A DNA stretch of 41,228 nt from Thermoplasmata archaeon (lineage in GTDB: Archaea > Thermoplasmatota > E2 > UBA202 > JdFR-43). The stretch covers positions 1-41,228 of the forward strand of contig JAGGZK010000059.1 in the NCBI GenBank assembly GCA_021162065.1, given 5' to 3'. Below the pieces are notes generated by a model. That model was not told the DNA's origin and did no database searches. It worked only from the letters and a program-made list of their open reading frames with translations. Below, one piece after another: positions 7,607 to 39,677 of the stretch (positions are counted from its first letter, which is position 1; the number at the start of each line of letters is the position of its first letter). A program made the position numbers and the translations under genes.

Positions 7607-9045
7607 ACATGCTCCGAATAAACATAGGTGAGCATTCCATTTTCCCCATTCAGTTTCCCATCAAAGGTTATGAAAGGCGGCGAGAGAACCACAAGGCGGT
7701 AGCCAAAGAAATAGTCCCTTACCATGCCTTTCAGACCCTCTATGGCACACGCCCCCCTGGGGGATGGAGATATTGATGATATCTCCTTCTCCTTGGTGTT
7801 GCCTTCAAGTATATCGAATAGGGTATCAGGATAATAATCCTCAACAAAGGTGATGTAAAAGGTGAAATTATTCTCGATGCTGTGTTCCTCTCCAAATATC
7901 TTCTCCGCCTCCTCTATGCTCAGCATTTTATTGCTTATGTCATCAAAATCCTTTGGTATTTCCTCATAGGCCAGATAGGGAGAGATTTCCTTTGATGGTA
8001 TGGGAGCCCTTCCTGTACTTGAGATATTCAGCACATAATCCTCCTTGGTGTTCTTATCCCCGAAATGGAGAAGCCATCCCTCCTCATCCTTTCCATGCCA
8101 GTATTCTGCATAAACCATATATGCATCCGGATGCTTGGCAAGAAAGCTTTTAAGCCCCGGATAATTCATGGCCTGCACCATGGCCGTCTGGATGCTCACC
8201 GAAAAATTCTGCGGGTTTCCATTTAATGGTGCCCCGTAATCCTTCCAGGAATAAAATTCCATGTTTCTGCTGGAATTATAGGGTACATCACTTAGATGGA
8301 GTTCCTCTCCATCTCCTCTTCTAAAACTTTTGAGGATGTATCGGTAAGTGTTGGCCTTTGTGCCATCATCGGTGGAGAAAGAAATCTGATATGGCAGGGG
8401 ATATCCATTTTTAAGCCATATGGAAACGTTGGCATTCACATCGGGGTGAACATCTATTCTCAAGGTGTGGAAATTTTCATCATATGATGCCTCCCACTCA
8501 AAATTGAGGCTCTCATAGTAAAAATTTCCCTGCATGGTAGAATTGAAGTCCTTTTCAAGGAAGAAATCTATTATATCATTCAGTGGCATGGAATTTATCT
8601 CCATTATTCTGTCCCTATTTATGGCATGATGTGTGGTCACACTCTTTATCATTCCTCCGACCTTATTTTCCTGCAGCAATCTGTAAACATGTTTTTCCAC
8701 CGTAACAGGCAAATCCTCCCTTTTCTCTATGGTGTAATTGTAGGGTATCTCGCTCAGATACTCATAGAAATCCACCACGTCGACGGTGTTTCCGAAGCCA
8801 TCCTCCACCGTGGCCTTCTTCACCTCAATGCTCATCTCACCCTTGCTCTGGTATATGAGGAAGCCGCCCTCCTCCCGCTTCACAGTCATTTTCCCCCATA
8901 CCTCGTATGTTATTTTGTCCCCTATCCTCAGGGCACTCGTTCTGTAAAATCCGGTTTTGTTCTCTTCCTCCTTTTTAATGCATCCTGTCCATCCTGCCAG
9001 TAATGATAGCACAACCACCATCACAACAATCTTATTCATATTCAA
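7603..9045 (-). CDS. Predicted secreted/lipoprotein of unknown function embedded in the preQ0 operon
   Basis: N-terminal signal MNKIVVMVVVLSLLAGWTGCIKKEEEN (candidate lipobox Cys). Overlaps queC upstream and queE downstream. Confidence 0.8.
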   Translation of the reverse strand: MNMNKIVVMVVVLSLLAGWTGCIKKEEENKTGFYRTSALRIGDKITYEVWGKMTVKREEGGFLIYQSKGEMSIEVKKATVEDGFGNTVDVVDFYEYLSEIPYNYTIEKREDLPVTVEKHVYRLLQENKVGGMIKSVTTHHAINRDRIMEINSMPLNDIIDFFLEKDFNSTMQGNFYYESLNFEWEASYDENFHTLRIDVHPDVNANVSIWLKNGYPLPYQISFSTDDGTKANTYRYILKSFRRGDGEELHLSDVPYNSSRNMEFYSWKDYGAPLNGNPQNFSVSIQTAMVQAMNYPGLKSFLAKHPDAYMVYAEYWHGKDEEGWLLHFGDKNTKEDYVLNISSTGRAPIPSKEISPYLAYEEIPKDFDDISNKMLSIEEAEKIFGEEHSIENNFTFYITFVEDYYPDTLFDILEGNTKEKEISSISPSPRGACAIEGLKGMVRDYFFGYRLVVLSPPFITFDGKLNGENGMLTYVYSEHV

Positions 9046-9697
9046 TTGGATCCCTCAAACCCGCTTCTTCAAAGGCCTTCAGACGGAGCTTGCATGATGG
9101 ACATCTGCCACATGCTTTAGCGCCCCCTCTGTAACAGCTCCACGTTTTTTCGAAGGGAACATGCAGCATTGCGCCTCTCTTCACTATCTCCGCCTTTGAT
9201 AGATATAGGAGGGGTGCTTTTATTTTTATCGGGTTGCCCTCCACACTTCTTTTCAACGCTAGGTTGGCCATTCTCTGGAACGCCTCTATGTATTCAGGTC
9301 TGCAGTCAGGGTAGCCGGAGTAGTCCACGGCATTCACCCCTATATAGATATAATCGGCATTCACCACCTCTCCATAGGCAAGGGCAAAAGAAAGGAATAT
9401 GGTGTTTCTTGCAGGCACATATGTTACAGGTATCCCTTCCGCCTCCTCCGGCACCTCTATGTCATCTGTGAGGGCAGAGCCACCAATTCTCCTGAAATTC
9501 ACATCAATTATTTTATGCTCTTTAGCCCCCAGCCATTCTGCTATCTTTTTTGCTGACTCAATCTCCCTTCTATTTCTCTGGTGATAATTGAAGGAGAGGG
9601 CGTATATCTCATGTCCCTCATGTTTTGCGATGGCAGCCGCAACGGCGCTGTCCATACCTCCTGAAATCAAACAGATGGCCTTTCCCATCTTGCCCAC
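9032..9697 (-). CDS. queC: 7-cyano-7-deazaguanine synthase
   Basis: PP-loop CLISGGMDSAVAAAIA and C-terminal Zn motif SCYRGGAKACGRCPSC. Confidence 0.94.
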   Translation of the reverse strand: MGKMGKAICLISGGMDSAVAAAIAKHEGHEIYALSFNYHQRNRREIESAKKIAEWLGAKEHKIIDVNFRRIGGSALTDDIEVPEEAEGIPVTYVPARNTIFLSFALAYGEVVNADYIYIGVNAVDYSGYPDCRPEYIEAFQRMANLALKRSVEGNPIKIKAPLLYLSKAEIVKRGAMLHVPFEKTWSCYRGGAKACGRCPSCKLRLKAFEEAGLRDPIEYE

Positions 9698-10146
9698 GCT
9701 CCCTGGCCTCTTCCTTCGTCAACACCTATTTCCACCTTTCTTATGTTGCTTCTGCCTTCAACCCCTGCCCTTTTGATGAATTCCTGCAGGATATAGGAGG
9801 CGAGATTTTCGGCAGATGAGGAATAGATGGGGAGAAATATGCAGTCCTCTTCCGGGAATATGTATCTTTTCCCTTCATATTTCACCTCCACCTCTTTGCC
9901 CCTTTTTACCTCAAATTTTCCTTCAGTGGGCACAATAACGCGATGATCTATCTCCTCTATTATCTCGCGAATTGTATTCTTTATTATCCTGAAATCCAGC
10001 AATATGCCTTCGATGGCATCTCCTTCCATTGTCATGTGGACAGCATATGAATGACCGTGGATGCGGGAGCATTTGGAATAATCGGCCAGAAAATGAGAGG
10101 AGGCAAAGGTTAAATTGCATCTCCATCCGTCTATCCTGATTTCCAT
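9667..10146 (-). CDS. queD: 6-pyruvoyl/6-carboxy-tetrahydropterin synthase family
   Basis: FASSHFL...CSRIHGHSYAVHM and IDHRVIVPTE, PTPS-like motifs, adjacent to queC. Confidence 0.88.
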   Translation of the reverse strand: MEIRIDGWRCNLTFASSHFLADYSKCSRIHGHSYAVHMTMEGDAIEGILLDFRIIKNTIREIIEEIDHRVIVPTEGKFEVKRGKEVEVKYEGKRYIFPEEDCIFLPIYSSSAENLASYILQEFIKRAGVEGRSNIRKVEIGVDEGRGQGAWARWERPSV

Positions 10147-11063: not shown

Positions 11064-11978
11064 ATGCAGCTCTACATCCATTTCCTAGGAACTGGGGGCT
11101 CCTGGCCTAGCGTGCAGCGGAATGTTTCAGCGGTAGCCATAAAGAGGGGAGGTGAAGTATTGTTATTCGACTGCGGAGAGGGAACGCAGAGGCAGATTCA
11201 GAGGTCAAGCATAAGTTACATGCAGATAAGGAAAGTGTTCATAACCCACTACCACGGCGACCATTTTCTTGGTTTGCCCGGATTCATTCAAACGATGCAG
11301 CTGAATGACAGGGAGGAAGCGCTGCACATATACGGGCCAAAAGGAACGGAAGAGATAGTGGATACCATCCTTCATCTCGGACATTTCAGCCCCTCCTATC
11401 CCATAATAGGCCATGATTTGAAATCCGGCGATGTTGTAAAATGCGATGGCTATGAGGTAAGATGTGTTGCTGCCCGCCATAATGTTCCATGCCTCGCATA
11501 TTCACTTGTCGAAGATGTCAGGCCAGGAAAATTCAACAAGCCCATGGCCCTCAGGCTTGGGGTGCCAGAAGGACCGCTCTTCAGAAAACTTCAGCAGGGT
11601 AAGAGTGTGGAGGTGAAAGGGAAAATAATAACCCCAGAGATGGTCCTCGGCCCTCCGCGCCCCGGAAGAAAGATAACTATATCCGGCGATACCATGCCCT
11701 GCAAGAGAGTGATAGAACTGGCGAGAGGAAGCGATGTTTTGATACATGACGCCACCTTCGATTCTTCCCTAGAGGACAGGGCAAATGAATATGGCCATTC
11801 TACGGCACGCCAAGCGGCGGAAGTGGCAAAAGAGGCGGGGGTGGAGAAGTTATATCTCACCCACATAAGTCCCCGTTACAGGGATGCGGAGGAGCTTGAA
11901 ATGGAGGCAAGAGAGGTATTTCCTGCCTCATATGTGGCCCATGACTTCATGGAAATTGAAGTGAGGTTGAAGAAATAG
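11064..11978 (+). CDS. rnz: Ribonuclease Z (tRNA 3' endonuclease)
   Basis: FLGTGGSWPS, FDCGEGTQRQ, ITHYHGDHFLGLPG, HSTARQAAEVAKEAGVEKLYLTHISPRY. Confidence 0.95.
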   Translation: MQLYIHFLGTGGSWPSVQRNVSAVAIKRGGEVLLFDCGEGTQRQIQRSSISYMQIRKVFITHYHGDHFLGLPGFIQTMQLNDREEALHIYGPKGTEEIVDTILHLGHFSPSYPIIGHDLKSGDVVKCDGYEVRCVAARHNVPCLAYSLVEDVRPGKFNKPMALRLGVPEGPLFRKLQQGKSVEVKGKIITPEMVLGPPRPGRKITISGDTMPCKRVIELARGSDVLIHDATFDSSLEDRANEYGHSTARQAAEVAKEAGVEKLYLTHISPRYRDAEELEMEAREVFPASYVAHDFMEIEVRLKK

Positions 11979-12586: not shown

Positions 12587-12707
12587 GGCCCGGGTGGTGT
12601 AGCGGCAACATAGGGGACTGTGGATCCCCTGTCCCGGGTTCAAATAGAGGGTTGCATCTCCTTTGCTTTGCCAAAAATGCAATCCTTTGGAAATCCCGGC
12701 CCGGGCC
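12587..12707 (+). tRNA. tRNA-His (GTG) with a candidate 49-nt intron in the T-loop
   Basis: G-1 12587; acceptor GCCCGGG 12588-12594 with CCCGGGC 12700-12706; C73 12707; D-arm GTGT/ACAT; anticodon arm GGGGA-CTGTGGA-TCCCC 12613-12629 (GTG 12620-12622); T-arm CCGGG 12634-12638 / TTCAAAT / CCCGG 12695-12699, interrupted by 49 nt. Confidence 0.88.
12646..12694 (+). other. Candidate tRNA intron (49 nt; boundary ambiguous over the AAAT repeat, 12642-12690 to 12646-12694)
   Basis: Removal restores a 7-nt TTCAAAT T-loop. The intron forms a helix GGGTTGCAT/ATGCAATCC (12649-12657 with 12677-12685). Confidence 0.8.
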
Positions 12708-13797: not shown

Positions 13798-15018
13798 TTA
13801 GGAGGAGATTTTTTCTGTATATGCCTTCCATCTCTCCTCTAATCGAGCGTCAAGCAGTGTATTCATTATATACTCTCCGAGTTCTTCTGTAGTTGCCCCG
13901 TCACTCCTTCCAGTTATGGTAATTTTCCTTTCATACTGGGTGCATATATCCAAGGCCATATTGAGTTTTCTTGCCTTATCCGTGTAACCAATGTGGTTCA
14001 GCATCATCGCTGCCGCCCTTATCATGCTCACCGGATCGGCATACTTTGCTCTTCCCTCCTCAACCATCCTCAATGCAGTTCCATGAATGGCTTCGAACAT
14101 GGCATATCTTTTGCCTATGTTGGCACTTCCTGCTGTGCCCACACCCCCCTGTATCTGTGCCGCCTCATCGCTTATTATGTCGCCGTATAAATTGGGCATC
14201 ACCATCACCCTGAAGTTTTTTCTCCTGGCTGGATCAAGAATTTTGGCGGTCATTATGTCGATGAACCAGTCGTCCCATTCCACCTCAGGATATTCCTTTG
14301 CAACTCTTTCGGCAATCTCCAGAAATTTGCCGTCCGTTGTTTTGATAACATTTGCTTTCGTTACCACAGTAACCCTGTTTATTCCATTTTTTCTCGCATA
14401 TTCAAAGGCATATCTTATTATCCTCTCCGCTCCTTGGGATGTTATCACTCGAAAATCGATGGCGAGGTCGGGAGTGACCTCTATTCCTTTACTTCCGAGC
14501 ATGTAAGCTCCTTCGGTATTTTCTCTCACTATCACCCAGTCTATGCCTTCCTCAGGCACTCTAACGGGCCTTACATTGGCGAACAAATCTAACTCTCTTC
14601 TCAAAGCAACATTGGCACTCTCTATATTGGGCATTCCATCTCCCTTCTTCGGCGTCGTTGTAGGACCTTTAAGCAAAACATGGCATTTCTTTATCTCCTC
14701 AAGGACGTCATCAGGTATGGCCTTACCTACCTTTGCGCGGTTCTCAATTGTGAGCCCCTCAATATTGCGCATCTCTACCTTGCCACTCTCAATTTCATCC
14801 TTCAGCATATGCTCCAGCACACGGCGGGCTTCCTTTGCAATGTATGGCCCAATGCCATCGCCACCAATGAATCCGATTATAATGGGCTTCAGTGTGCTGT
14901 AATCTATCCAGTCAGATTCATTTTTCAGGCGCTCTACGCGCTCAAGTTGCTCCATCACCAATTGAGCAAAATGCTCCTTGGCCTTCTCTATATCCTCTTT
15001 ATACTTTTCCTCTACCAT
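13798..15018 (-). CDS. icd: Isocitrate/isopropylmalate dehydrogenase family, likely isocitrate dehydrogenase
   Basis: GFIGGDGIGPYIAKEARRVLE, VIVRENTEGAYMLGSKG, MPNLYGDIISDEAAQIQGGVGTAGSANIG. Operon context with aconitase. Confidence 0.87.
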   Translation of the reverse strand: MVEEKYKEDIEKAKEHFAQLVMEQLERVERLKNESDWIDYSTLKPIIIGFIGGDGIGPYIAKEARRVLEHMLKDEIESGKVEMRNIEGLTIENRAKVGKAIPDDVLEEIKKCHVLLKGPTTTPKKGDGMPNIESANVALRRELDLFANVRPVRVPEEGIDWVIVRENTEGAYMLGSKGIEVTPDLAIDFRVITSQGAERIIRYAFEYARKNGINRVTVVTKANVIKTTDGKFLEIAERVAKEYPEVEWDDWFIDIMTAKILDPARRKNFRVMVMPNLYGDIISDEAAQIQGGVGTAGSANIGKRYAMFEAIHGTALRMVEEGRAKYADPVSMIRAAAMMLNHIGYTDKARKLNMALDICTQYERKITITGRSDGATTEELGEYIMNTLLDARLEERWKAYTEKISS

Positions 15019-15027
15019 TCTACCACC

Positions 15028-16611
15028 TCATTCTATTTTATCCAGTGGGTTCTCAAGTCCCTTTACTTTACGGACAACATCTATGATGGTGCCATCCCTG
15101 TACTCCACCAGGGCGACTATCTCATCATCCCAGTCAGGTTTCTTCTGTTCCTTTATACCTGCCTTCCGATATGCCAGTTTCTTCAGATCCTCAATATCAA
15201 CAATATTCAGGTCAGAACCTTTGACTTTCTCCATCAGATCGTCCCTTCTGGGGTTTATCGCTATGCCATACTCAGTCACAACGGCATCAACAGTCTCTCC
15301 GGGTGTGGTGACTGTGGTAACCTCATCCACTATTATTGGCAGCCTTCCCCTCATCAATGGTGCTGTGATTATAGTCAACTTTGCACCTGCCGCAGTATCC
15401 TGATGGCCACCTATTGGATGCGATAGCATACCATTGGAGAATGTGACCGTGTTGACATTGAAATTCACATCAACCTCTGTTGCCCCAAGGACGATGACAT
15501 CAAGGTTGTTGACAAGACATCCCTTTCCATGGACATGTGCGTAGTGGTCTATTCCTGCAAAGAAGTGGTTCCTATCGTTCTGCATGGATTCAATTGCGGC
15601 AGTATCAAAGGCCTGTCCAGTGAGGACCTTCTTGACATGTCCCTTCCTGAGTATATCCACGAGGAACTTTGTCGTGCCGGCCATTGCCCATGAGGCCACA
15701 TACCCTTCCTTCTCAAGCAGTTCACCCAAGAACTTTGTGAAGGCAAGGGATATTCCACCCGCACCCGCCTGGAATGAACAGCCGTCATATATATGGCCAG
15801 TGATATGTGCCAATTTAACTGCATCTCTGGCTATCTTCAACCTTGTTGGGCTCTTTGTTATCCTCAATGTACCACTGACAATTTTATTTGGATCACCTAT
15901 CTGGTCAACAAGGGCAACGACATCAACATACTGCTCGCTGATTTCTATTGGCGTGCACGGGTATTCAACGAGATTGTCGGTCACGACAACTACCTTTTCT
16001 GCGTAGTGTGCGTCTGGCACGCTGTACTGTATGCACCCACAGGCATGTGGTCCAAAGAGGCCATTGCAATTTCCTGCATAGTCAGATGATGGCGCACCGA
16101 TGAAGGCCACATCTATGTGTATGTCGCCAGATGTAATGGCCCTGACCCTGCCACCATGGCTCCTGAGCCTGACTGGTTTATCAAACACACCGGATGAAAC
16201 TGCCTGCCCTATTTTGCCCCTGTATGAACCACCCTCAATATACTTCAGTGTGCCTGTCTTTATGGCCCTCAGCACCGTATCCTCCTGGCACGGGAATGTG
16301 GAAGACGGTGCGAGTGTGAGGTCCTTTATGCCGAGTTTCATTGCGGCCTCCAGTACCATGTTCATTACCATGTCACCATCACGGAAGTGATGATGGAACG
16401 ATATGGTCATGCCATCACTGAGACCAACCTTTTTTATTGCCTCCTCTATGCCCTTTACAACCTTATTTCTTTTATCTGGTGAGGCAACATAGCCAAGTTT
16501 TGGAGCTACCTTTCTTCCCTCTGGCACATGGGCAAAAGCACCCTTAAATGGGATGAGTTTCATCCCTGCGATCTCTTCAGGAATATCACGACCAACTGCA
16601 TTCTTCACCAT
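15028..16611 (-). CDS. citF: Citrate lyase alpha subunit
   Basis: CitF-like throughout: SFHHHFRDGDMVMNMVLEAA, SSGVFDKPVRLRSHGGRVRA, GGHQDTAAGAKLTIITAPL, VTEYGIAINPRR. Confidence 0.92.
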   Translation of the reverse strand: MVKNAVGRDIPEEIAGMKLIPFKGAFAHVPEGRKVAPKLGYVASPDKRNKVVKGIEEAIKKVGLSDGMTISFHHHFRDGDMVMNMVLEAAMKLGIKDLTLAPSSTFPCQEDTVLRAIKTGTLKYIEGGSYRGKIGQAVSSGVFDKPVRLRSHGGRVRAITSGDIHIDVAFIGAPSSDYAGNCNGLFGPHACGCIQYSVPDAHYAEKVVVVTDNLVEYPCTPIEISEQYVDVVALVDQIGDPNKIVSGTLRITKSPTRLKIARDAVKLAHITGHIYDGCSFQAGAGGISLAFTKFLGELLEKEGYVASWAMAGTTKFLVDILRKGHVKKVLTGQAFDTAAIESMQNDRNHFFAGIDHYAHVHGKGCLVNNLDVIVLGATEVDVNFNVNTVTFSNGMLSHPIGGHQDTAAGAKLTIITAPLMRGRLPIIVDEVTTVTTPGETVDAVVTEYGIAINPRRDDLMEKVKGSDLNIVDIEDLKKLAYRKAGIKEQKKPDWDDEIVALVEYRDGTIIDVVRKVKGLENPLDKIE

Positions 16612-17552
16612 TACTCTCCCTCCTTCACTATGGATTCCCTTATGCTTTCTGGCAGTTCATCCTCCTTTATCATACCGGCAAGATAGGCGATCATAAGCAC
16701 TCTCTCCGCCTTCTCCGCCACTGGCTTGTCTATCATCTTTCTGCCCAAGGCGACGACGCCAGAGCCACTGGCCTTGGCCTTTTCTATGGCCTCCATAACC
16801 CTGAGGGCGTAGTCAATCTCCTCCTGTGTGGGGTTGAATGCCTCGTGTATCACTGGAATCTGGTTTGGATGGATCGCCGCCTTGCCGTCAAATCCCATCT
16901 TCTTCATCATGACCGCATTTTTATACAGTCCTTCAAGGTCACTGATATCTGAATGCACTGTGTCAAGGGCCTGCTTTCCAGCCGCCTTGGCCGCTGCTAC
17001 AAGCTGGCTGCGGGCCCAGAGAAGTTCTGTTCCCTCTGGTGTGCGCTCACCGCCAATGTCCCTTGTGTAGTCCTCTCCTCCGAAGGATAGAGCGACAACC
17101 CGGTCTGAGGCGGTGGCAATATCGTAGGCGAACCATATTCCCTTAGCACTCTCCAGAATGGGTATTATCTTTGTCTGCCCCATGGGGATATCGTTTTCCT
17201 TCTCAAGTTTCTCCAGCACGGAGTCGAGCTGTTTTATGTCCTCCGCGCTCTCCGCCTTTGGAAGGTAGATGACCTCAACCCTTTTAGTTGGAATGATCGC
17301 CTCAAGGTCCTTCATTCCCCAGGGAGTGCTCAGGGAGTTTATTCTCACTGTGATTTCACTCTTGCCAAAGTCAAGTTCCTTCAGTGCCTCTGCAACGAGC
17401 CATCTCGCTGCGAGTTTTTGATCCGGGGCAACACTGTCTTCCAGATCTATTGTTACTGCATCTGCTCCAAAAAGACCGCAGGTTGACAGCATCCTGGGCC
17501 TGTTGCCAGGCACATATATGCGGCTCCTCCTGAGTTTATATGCCATTTTCAC
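16611..17552 (-). CDS. citE: Citrate lyase beta subunit
   Basis: RRSRIYVPGNRPRMLSTCGLFGADAVTIDLEDSVAPDQK, GEDYTRDIG, FDGKAAIHPNQIPVIHEAFNPTQEEIDYALRV. Confidence 0.92.
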   Translation of the reverse strand: MKMAYKLRRSRIYVPGNRPRMLSTCGLFGADAVTIDLEDSVAPDQKLAARWLVAEALKELDFGKSEITVRINSLSTPWGMKDLEAIIPTKRVEVIYLPKAESAEDIKQLDSVLEKLEKENDIPMGQTKIIPILESAKGIWFAYDIATASDRVVALSFGGEDYTRDIGGERTPEGTELLWARSQLVAAAKAAGKQALDTVHSDISDLEGLYKNAVMMKKMGFDGKAAIHPNQIPVIHEAFNPTQEEIDYALRVMEAIEKAKASGSGVVALGRKMIDKPVAEKAERVLMIAYLAGMIKEDELPESIRESIVKEGE

Positions 17553-38801: not shown

Positions 38802-39677
38802 TCATTTTTTAATGGCGATGCCAATCACATCTTTTATGCTCGTGTATCCATGCTTCTCCAGCCATTCTTCCAGTTCTTTGGCTATCTCCGAAAATATACT
38901 TACATCCCTGTAATATACGCCCGCACCTATCTGGACGGCTCTGGCGCCCGCCATCATGTATTCTATGACATCCTCCGCCCTTGTTATTCCTCCCACTCCG
39001 ATTACAGGGATTTCATAATTGGAAGAGATTTCATAAACACATCTGATTCCAATGGGTTTTATTCCTTTGCCCGAATATCCCCCTACCCTGTTGCCCAGGA
39101 TGGGGTGGCCGGTTTCAATATCTATGGCCATCGCCTTTACGGTATTTATCGCCACCACCGCATCTGCCCCTCCTTCAATGGCCCTCTCTGCCCTGTTAAG
39201 AATATTCTCCATTCCAATCTTTACAAATACGGGTTTGCCCGCCTTTTTTACCTCCTTTACAGCATCCGGTATCTCGTCTTCAGGATATTCAGCTCCCACT
39301 CTTTTCGCATGGGGGCAGCTCATATTCATCTCGATGGCCTTCACATATGGAGAGATTTTTCTGGCAACATATCCGAATTCCTCCGCATTTCCTCCGAATA
39401 CACTTCCTATCACATTCTCCACGCCAACTTCCTCCAGCTCCCTCACATATTCTTCCACACCAGGATTTGCAAGGCCTATGGCGTTCAATATGCCATATTC
39501 CATCTCATAAACAACAGGATTTTTGTAGCCCTTTCTTTCCTCTCTCCCCACAGATTTTGTTACAACAGCCCCCGCATCCACAAACCTTTCCATGCTTTCC
39601 TTCGTCAAATCTAAGATGCCAGAAGCAAGCATGAGGGGATTCTTCATTTTTATTCCTGCAATCTCAACCCTAAGCAT
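38802..39677 (-). CDS. pyrD: Dihydroorotate dehydrogenase
   Basis: MKNPLMLASGILD, NAIGLANPGVEEY, EMNMSCPHA, KPVFVKIGMENI, PVIGVGGITRAEDVIEYMMAGARAVQIGAGVYY. Confidence 0.93.
   Translation of the reverse strand: MLRVEIAGIKMKNPLMLASGILDLTKESMERFVDAGAVVTKSVGREERKGYKNPVVYEMEYGILNAIGLANPGVEEYVRELEEVGVENVIGSVFGGNAEEFGYVARKISPYVKAIEMNMSCPHAKRVGAEYPEDEIPDAVKEVKKAGKPVFVKIGMENILNRAERAIEGGADAVVAINTVKAMAIDIETGHPILGNRVGGYSGKGIKPIGIRCVYEISSNYEIPVIGVGGITRAEDVIEYMMAGARAVQIGAGVYYRDVSIFSEIAKELEEWLEKHGYTSIKDVIGIAIKK

Follow-up and report, generated by a model that had tools for sequence, protein, structure and literature searches.

The window, a 41,228-nt contig (JAGGZK010000059.1) from the draft genome of a Thermoplasmata archaeon (GCA_021162065.1), carries a tRNA-His(GTG) gene that is interrupted in its T-loop (Table 1). 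The G-1:C73 pair and the GTG anticodon can be read directly from the sequence, and the anticodon loop is intact, the interruption lying elsewhere than at the canonical 37/38 position. The gene runs CCGGG-TTCAAA, 49 nt, T-CCCGG and then the acceptor 3' strand to C73, with the insert placed at 59/60, between A59 (12644) and U60 (12694). Removal of the 49 nt leaves a perfect 5-bp T-stem (12634-12638 paired with 12695-12699) and a 7-nt T-loop, as the first-pass annotation had stated. Immediately upstream of the tRNA (9032-10146 and 11064-11978) are QueC and a PTPS/QueD-like gene of the queuosine/archaeosine precursor pathway, together with an RNase Z-like metallo-beta-lactamase gene. The minus strand at 13798-17552 has an isocitrate/isopropylmalate dehydrogenase-like gene adjoining two citrate lyase genes, alpha (CitF) and beta-like.

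Table 1 Features of the interrupted tRNA-His gene, in window positions.
Feature	Position	Strand	Evidence
tRNA-His(GTG), whole interrupted gene	12587-12707	+	Sequence; covariance model; ARAGORN after splicing
5' exon, G-1 to A59 (acceptor 5' strand, D-arm, anticodon arm with GTG at 34-36, T-stem 5' strand, T54-A59)	12587..12644	+	Sequence; covariance-model match; ARAGORN after splicing
49-nt intron at site 59/60	12645..12693	+	Intron-less orthologues with the same flanks lack the insert; other orthologues have other introns
3' exon (U60, T-stem 3' strand, acceptor 3' strand, C73)	12694..12707	+	Sequence; covariance model
U54-U55-C56-A57, putative 5' strand of the 4-bp central helix	12639..12642	+	Covariation of position 57 across 98 genes
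UGGA within the intron, putative 3' strand of the central helix	12688..12691	+	UGRA at this place in 8/8 tRNA-His T-loop introns; covariation
5' bulge AAU, predicted cut after 12644	12643..12645	+	Inferred from the motif; mature loop equals that of intron-less relatives
3' bulge AAU, predicted cut after 12693	12692..12694	+	Inferred from the motif; AAU in 8/8 tRNA-His introns
Intron hairpin, 12645-12657 paired with 12677-12689	12645..12689	+	Minimum-free-energy fold

ARAGORN called no tRNA in the window, bearing out an earlier warning that standard tRNA finders might miss the gene, and the Rfam tRNA model (RF00005) gave a marginal, misaligned match of 29.6 bits. We built a tRNA-His covariance model from the spliced sequences of the family, the window's own included; spliced sequences were aligned for this model, and MAFFT misplaced the introns when given intron-containing genes. 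The model matched positions 12587-12707 from end to end with the insert in place (90.2 bits), and ARAGORN, which made no call on the unspliced gene, reported tRNA-His(gtg) once the 49 nt were removed. The precursor folded better than all of 200 shuffled sequences (z -2.8). The junction is ambiguous owing to the AAAT repeats, as had been pointed out, and the product is unaffected: every cut the repeats permit gives the spliced T-loop UUCAAAU. These analyses confirmed that the interrupted tRNA-His gene, complete with G-1 and C73, is real and has a 49-nt insert.

Among the 17 genomes of the family, the tRNA-His gene has a T-loop intron in six (G000, which contains the window, G004, G008, G010, G012 and G014), no intron in another six (G001, G002, G003, G006, G009 and G011) and a 37/38 intron in four (G007, G013, G015 and G016); in the remaining genome (G005) the contig ends inside the insert. 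Two more tRNA-His T-loop introns were detected in two genomes of a sister family (G019 and G021). These relatives include Thermoplasmatales archaeon JdFR-43 (G014), AUK247 (G010), S5B3_HD70 (G012), B78_G9 (G005), M10_bin2222 (G004) and M8_bin1702 (G021), and all those checked that are named to phylum belong to the Thermoplasmatota. The eight tRNA-His T-loop introns are 19-49 nt long and differ in sequence, and all end in UGAA-AA|U or UGGA-AA|U, a shared ending that is not circular because the eight genes were found from their exons. Comparison with the intron-less orthologues shows the boundaries of the insert, as their T-loops read UUCAAAU in G001, G003, G006 and G011, identical to the spliced loop of the window gene, and UUCGAAU in G002 and G009. 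An RNase Z-like gene lies upstream in the intron-bearing G000, G010, G012 and G014, in G005 and in the intron-less G003, and the same locus therefore occurs with and without the intron. On a tree of the splicing endonuclease, which is based on a single gene and weakly supported, the T-loop intron states of tRNA-His imply four changes, at least three of them forced by well-supported branches. Gains can be separated from losses only at G003, whose intron-less gene is nested among G012 and G014, suggesting an intron loss. Overall, the comparative evidence supports the first-pass reading of the insert as an archaeal tRNA intron at 59/60 of the T-loop, in a broadly euryarchaeal genome that belongs to the Thermoplasmatota.

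Pattern searches revealed 98 tRNA genes with 59/60 introns in 25 Thermoplasmatota genomes. The window's order, with 22 genomes, accounts for 80 of them (20 genomes), and five genomes elsewhere in the phylum for 18. The first pattern was GGTTCRAA-N-TGRAAATC(C) with short and long spacers, the second had CGRA and tests whether G57 meets C, and matches were retained when the T-stem was fully paired and a tRNA was called on the spliced sequence. The search covered the 59/60 site, and the numbers given are those found with these patterns rather than a full count of introns per tRNA gene. As controls for chance, reversed patterns gave 0-2 matches per genome, and none of the 11 matches in viral contigs was a tRNA; other matches outside tRNAs (e.g., L128, L145, L154 and L166-L184) were ruled out by T-stem pairing and ARAGORN. 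Among the first 30 matches, ARAGORN recognised three unspliced and 28 after splicing. The interrupted tRNAs include His, Ser, Lys, Arg, Ala, Glu, Gly, Cys, Leu, Gln, Met and Asp, though the names are unreliable for genes carrying a second intron. The window genome has five such genes (His, Lys(TTT), Arg(CCT), Ser(GGA) and Ser(CGA)), and up to nine occur per draft genome. As judged from these sequence comparisons, the window intron is no isolated oddity and belongs to a set of T-loop introns that spans the clade and shares one architecture.

Several further tRNA loci were seen. Introns at both 37/38 and 59/60 are apparent in tRNA-Glu, tRNA-Leu and other genes (L126, L137, L133, L147 and others). 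Nine tRNA-like loci of another genome of the phylum (G311, L185-L193) have T-loop inserts of only 13-14 nt, near the low end of the 11-129 nt range (PMC4090602), which fold as a bulge-helix-loop without an inner helix. In G096, also of this phylum and distant from the window's order, seven tRNAs (L194-L200) have T-loop introns of two families, each with closely similar members, which looks like a recent burst of intron spread. An intron-containing tRNA-Tyr is identical at the ends of two contigs of the window genome (C12, L025; C20, L026), either an assembly overlap or a repeat.

Near-identical introns were found in unrelated tRNAs of a single genome. The Gly(TCC) and Arg(CCT) introns of G011 are identical at 45 of 45 positions with a 5' exon identity of 0.64, the Leu and Ala introns of G096 are 98% identical and a pair in G012 97%, and the 5' exons of the intron-sharing tRNAs in these three genomes are 53-64% alike. 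The introns have therefore spread within genomes, although no near-identical partner was seen in another tRNA for the window's own intron. As for the mode of movement, one candidate is provirus integration, by which elements inserting at the 3' part of a tRNA gene would carry an intron-bearing 3' part and overwrite that of the host; this is compatible with a protein-spliced intron. A 22-kb tailed archaeal provirus with integrase, terminase, portal, capsid and tape-measure genes resides in tRNA-Arg(CCT) of G001 (C4:16600-39400; L275-L276). Perfect 75-bp repeats of the tRNA 3' part mark its two ends (16809-16883 and 38824-38898, the integrase ORF entering one copy) and include a 30-nt T-loop intron; in the congeneric G008 the intron of tRNA-Arg(CCT) is another one, of 15 nt. 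The arrangement resembles a model proposed for tRNA-Thr of Caldiarchaeum (PMC3293823). We nevertheless regard provirus integration as a possible but rather doubtful account of the spread, as it is seen in one case only and elements that attach at a single isoacceptor would leave unexplained why unrelated tRNAs have identical introns. Such introns suggest that reverse splicing or DNA-level copying took part as well.

The T-loop introns share a predicted splice motif, which consists of the T-stem, a 3' bulge AAU, a 4-bp helix between U54-U55-C56-R57 and YGRA, a 5' bulge AAN and the intron hairpin. It fits nearly all members of the set, often with a mismatch at the base of the intron hairpin, and cuts after the second A of each bulge would give the mature loop. 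Covariation across the set supports the central helix of 4 bp and the 3-nt bulges that flank it at the two splice sites: position 57 and its intron partner form A-U in 56 genes, G-C in 36 and G-U in five, with a single A-C mismatch (98 genes; Fisher p about 3e-20, indicative only as the sequences are related). Both patterns, TGRA and CGRA, accepted A or G at position 57, so this pairing was not imposed by the search. In addition, 75 of the 89 introns of at least 19 nt folded better than shuffled introns (z below -2).

One pair of the central helix in the window gene is U-G, and ViennaRNA gives the helix a probability as low as 0.02, because the 13-bp intron hairpin reaches into it with its outer pairs. 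The fold constrained to this helix is 2.7 kcal/mol less stable (-22.1 vs -24.8 kcal/mol). The tRNA-His gene of G008 likewise has a probability of 0.02, and the other six tRNA-His introns have 0.34-0.85. The motif of the window gene is thus one that rests on comparison with relatives, its own thermodynamics being weak, and splicing here would require that the enzyme prefer the less stable of the two folds, as in G008. The first-pass annotation had drawn a different bulge-helix-bulge, with a 3-bp UUC/GAA helix, an AAA 5' bulge, a 2-nt AU 3' bulge and the full 13-bp hairpin below. That geometry differs slightly from UUCA/UGGA with two 3-nt bulges and is less well supported by homologues. Removal through the 3-bp geometry would leave the minimum-free-energy hairpin whole, and archaeal enzymes accept 2-nt bulges (PMC8707768). 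However, what is fixed among relatives is YGRA and, directly after it, AAU; position 57 covaries with the Y, which calls for a 4-bp helix and a 3-nt 3' bulge and makes the 3-bp alternative improbable. The two geometries give an identical spliced product.

The draft genome that contains the window (1.38 Mb, 74 contigs, 96% complete) has 35 tRNA-model matches with a single His. A second, intact tRNA-His would have pointed to a pseudogene here. None was found by the tRNA family model, the specific tRNA-His model or a pattern allowing up to 3 mismatches, in a draft whose 96% completeness leaves strictly some room for a copy in a gap. We consider it very unlikely that the insertion destroyed this tRNA-His while another copy serves the cell, because the gene is the sole His tRNA found in the genome. 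The failure of ARAGORN to recognise it and the fragmentation of the draft into 74 contigs would fit such a pseudogene, but its exons are free of mutations, the orthologues in seven other genomes bear different introns at the same place, and dozens of other tRNAs have the same arrangement and covarying helix. That G-1 is added after transcription is disfavoured, as G-1 is encoded in the gene and no Thg1, which would perform this addition, was found in the genome. A self-splicing group I/II intron or a mobile-element scar, to which the shortness of the insert and the flanking AAAT might point, can be set aside with near certainty, given that 49 nt is far too short for self-splicing, the tRNA itself (RF00005) is the only match in the window above the Rfam gathering score, and the AAAT repeat is part of the two splice-motif bulges and varies among relatives (AAC, AAA).

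The endonuclease type, which the first-pass annotation had suggested checking, could be assigned. The family model found a single splicing endonuclease in the window genome (contig C39; L036:1462-2493, minus strand), a homodimeric alpha'2-like protein of 343 aa that contains PF01974 twice and is similar along its length to the enzyme of A. fulgidus (2gjw, 1r0v) and to a Methanopyrus fusion chain (5x89). Two-domain, alpha'2-like endonucleases of 313-361 aa were detected in 23 of the 30 genomes searched, with two copies on one contig in G020, and the catalytic Tyr, His and Lys are conserved. None of those from the 23 genomes has an insertion at the site of the crenarchaeal loop, which is longer in 3p1y, and the loop that precedes the LSL motif has the short length seen in wild-type A. 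fulgidus. Among the genomes with a match, all 23 encode alpha'2-like enzymes and none an (alpha-beta)2 or epsilon2 enzyme with a specificity loop (CSL/ASL). The seven genomes lacking a match include five with T-loop introns (G005, G011, G015, G019 and G021), where gaps in the drafts may be responsible.

The window insert is very probably a protein-spliced archaeal tRNA intron that an alpha'2 endonuclease removes from a T-loop bulge-helix-bulge. We infer that the transcript folds with the T-stem as the outer helix and U54-U55-C56-A57 paired with UGGA, so that two 3-nt bulges (AAU and AAU) flank the 4-bp helix. The 343-aa homodimer would then cleave each bulge 3' of its second A; joining of A59 to U60 by a ligase would restore the normal T-loop UUCAAAU. 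RtcB is the ligase in other archaea. TTCR is nearly universal in tRNAs, and an intron ending in YGRA-AA would for this reason be spliceable from almost any tRNA; the lineage has accumulated such introns and spread them in many tRNA genes. According to reviews, alpha2-type enzymes have a narrow specificity (PMC6379350) or cut only canonical motifs (PMC4033280). Homodimeric archaeal enzymes are, however, reported to cut both bulge-helix-loop motifs and bulge-helix-bulge motifs whose bulges measure 2-3 nt, irrespective of a mature tRNA domain (PMC8707768). As far as their sequences indicate, the introns described here fit this broader activity.

Introns of this kind are themselves known. T-arm introns, the 59/60 junction and intron transposition have been described in Crenarchaeota and others. 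For Thermoproteales and other Crenarchaeota, PMC4033280 and PMC4090602 give an account of the noncanonical tRNA introns and their large-scale transposition found by Fujishima et al. (2010). The earlier remark that introns outside 37/38 are mostly crenarchaeal agrees with this literature, which adds Thaumarchaeota and a few others. The present set, for which the 59/60 site was searched, resembles that of Thermoproteales/Crenarchaeota in three respects: the bulge-helix-bulge introns lie outside 37/38, unrelated tRNAs of a genome can share near-identical introns, and a tRNA can have several introns. The Crenarchaeota differ in belonging to another phylum and in having (alpha-beta)2 enzymes with a crenarchaea-specific loop, whereas the enzyme here is a homodimeric alpha'2 without it. 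Canonical euryarchaeal 37/38 introns share the type of splicing enzyme and the motif, and coexist with T-loop introns in these genomes, by ARAGORN even in the same tRNA (e.g., Glu in G006 and G011). They use anticodon-loop sequence, whereas here the T-loop TTCR serves as the constant half of the central helix. The T-loop permuted tRNAs of Thermofilum pendens and Cyanidioschyzon merolae (PMC3218864) have the same 59/60 junction and the same kind of motif, unlike the present genes, whose exons are in normal order.

Within the Euryarchaeota, tRNA introns have been described as single and at the canonical position (PMC4090602), with noncanonical introns in three thermophilic methanogens only (PMC3218864). 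Multiple or noncanonical introns, as here, are known in the broad-sense Euryarchaeota from Methanopyrus kandleri, Methanothermobacter thermautotrophicus and ARMAN (PMC4033280), the enzyme being (alpha-beta)2 in M. kandleri and epsilon2 in ARMAN (PMC6379350) and alpha'2 in our genomes. Neither in these nor in the three thermophilic methanogens has a clade-wide set at one T-loop position been described. No report of the T-loop set in Thermoplasmatota was found in the open literature, a search that left aside subscription papers, preprints, supplements and GtRNAdb. Relative to the literature covered, what is new here is a clade-wide, position-specific (59/60) set in this phylum. Reviews hold that intron richness and noncanonical positions track endonuclease type, setting (alpha-beta)2 and epsilon2 enzymes with a lysine loop against the intron-poor alpha4/alpha2 euryarchaea, with introns at 37/38 (PMC4090602, PMC4033280, PMC12397907).

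We tentatively propose, as one possibility that we place below even chances, that the Thermoplasmatota harbour a portable family of T-loop introns using TTCR as half of the splice motif. Such introns would enter almost any tRNA, spread within genomes, be carried in part by proviruses with intron-containing attachment sites, and be kept with an alpha'2 enzyme that reviews deem too narrow for them. Against the reviews' expectation, a euryarchaeal lineage pairs an alpha'2 enzyme with up to nine T-loop introns per draft genome, and if the portable family is real, intron diversity would be tied less closely to enzyme type than is now accepted. Because ARAGORN recognised so few of the first matches before splicing, tRNA censuses of such genomes may undercount, and a tRNA reported as missing may be one that was missed. 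Close relatives with and without an intron at the same site provide a natural set for studying intron gain, loss and movement.
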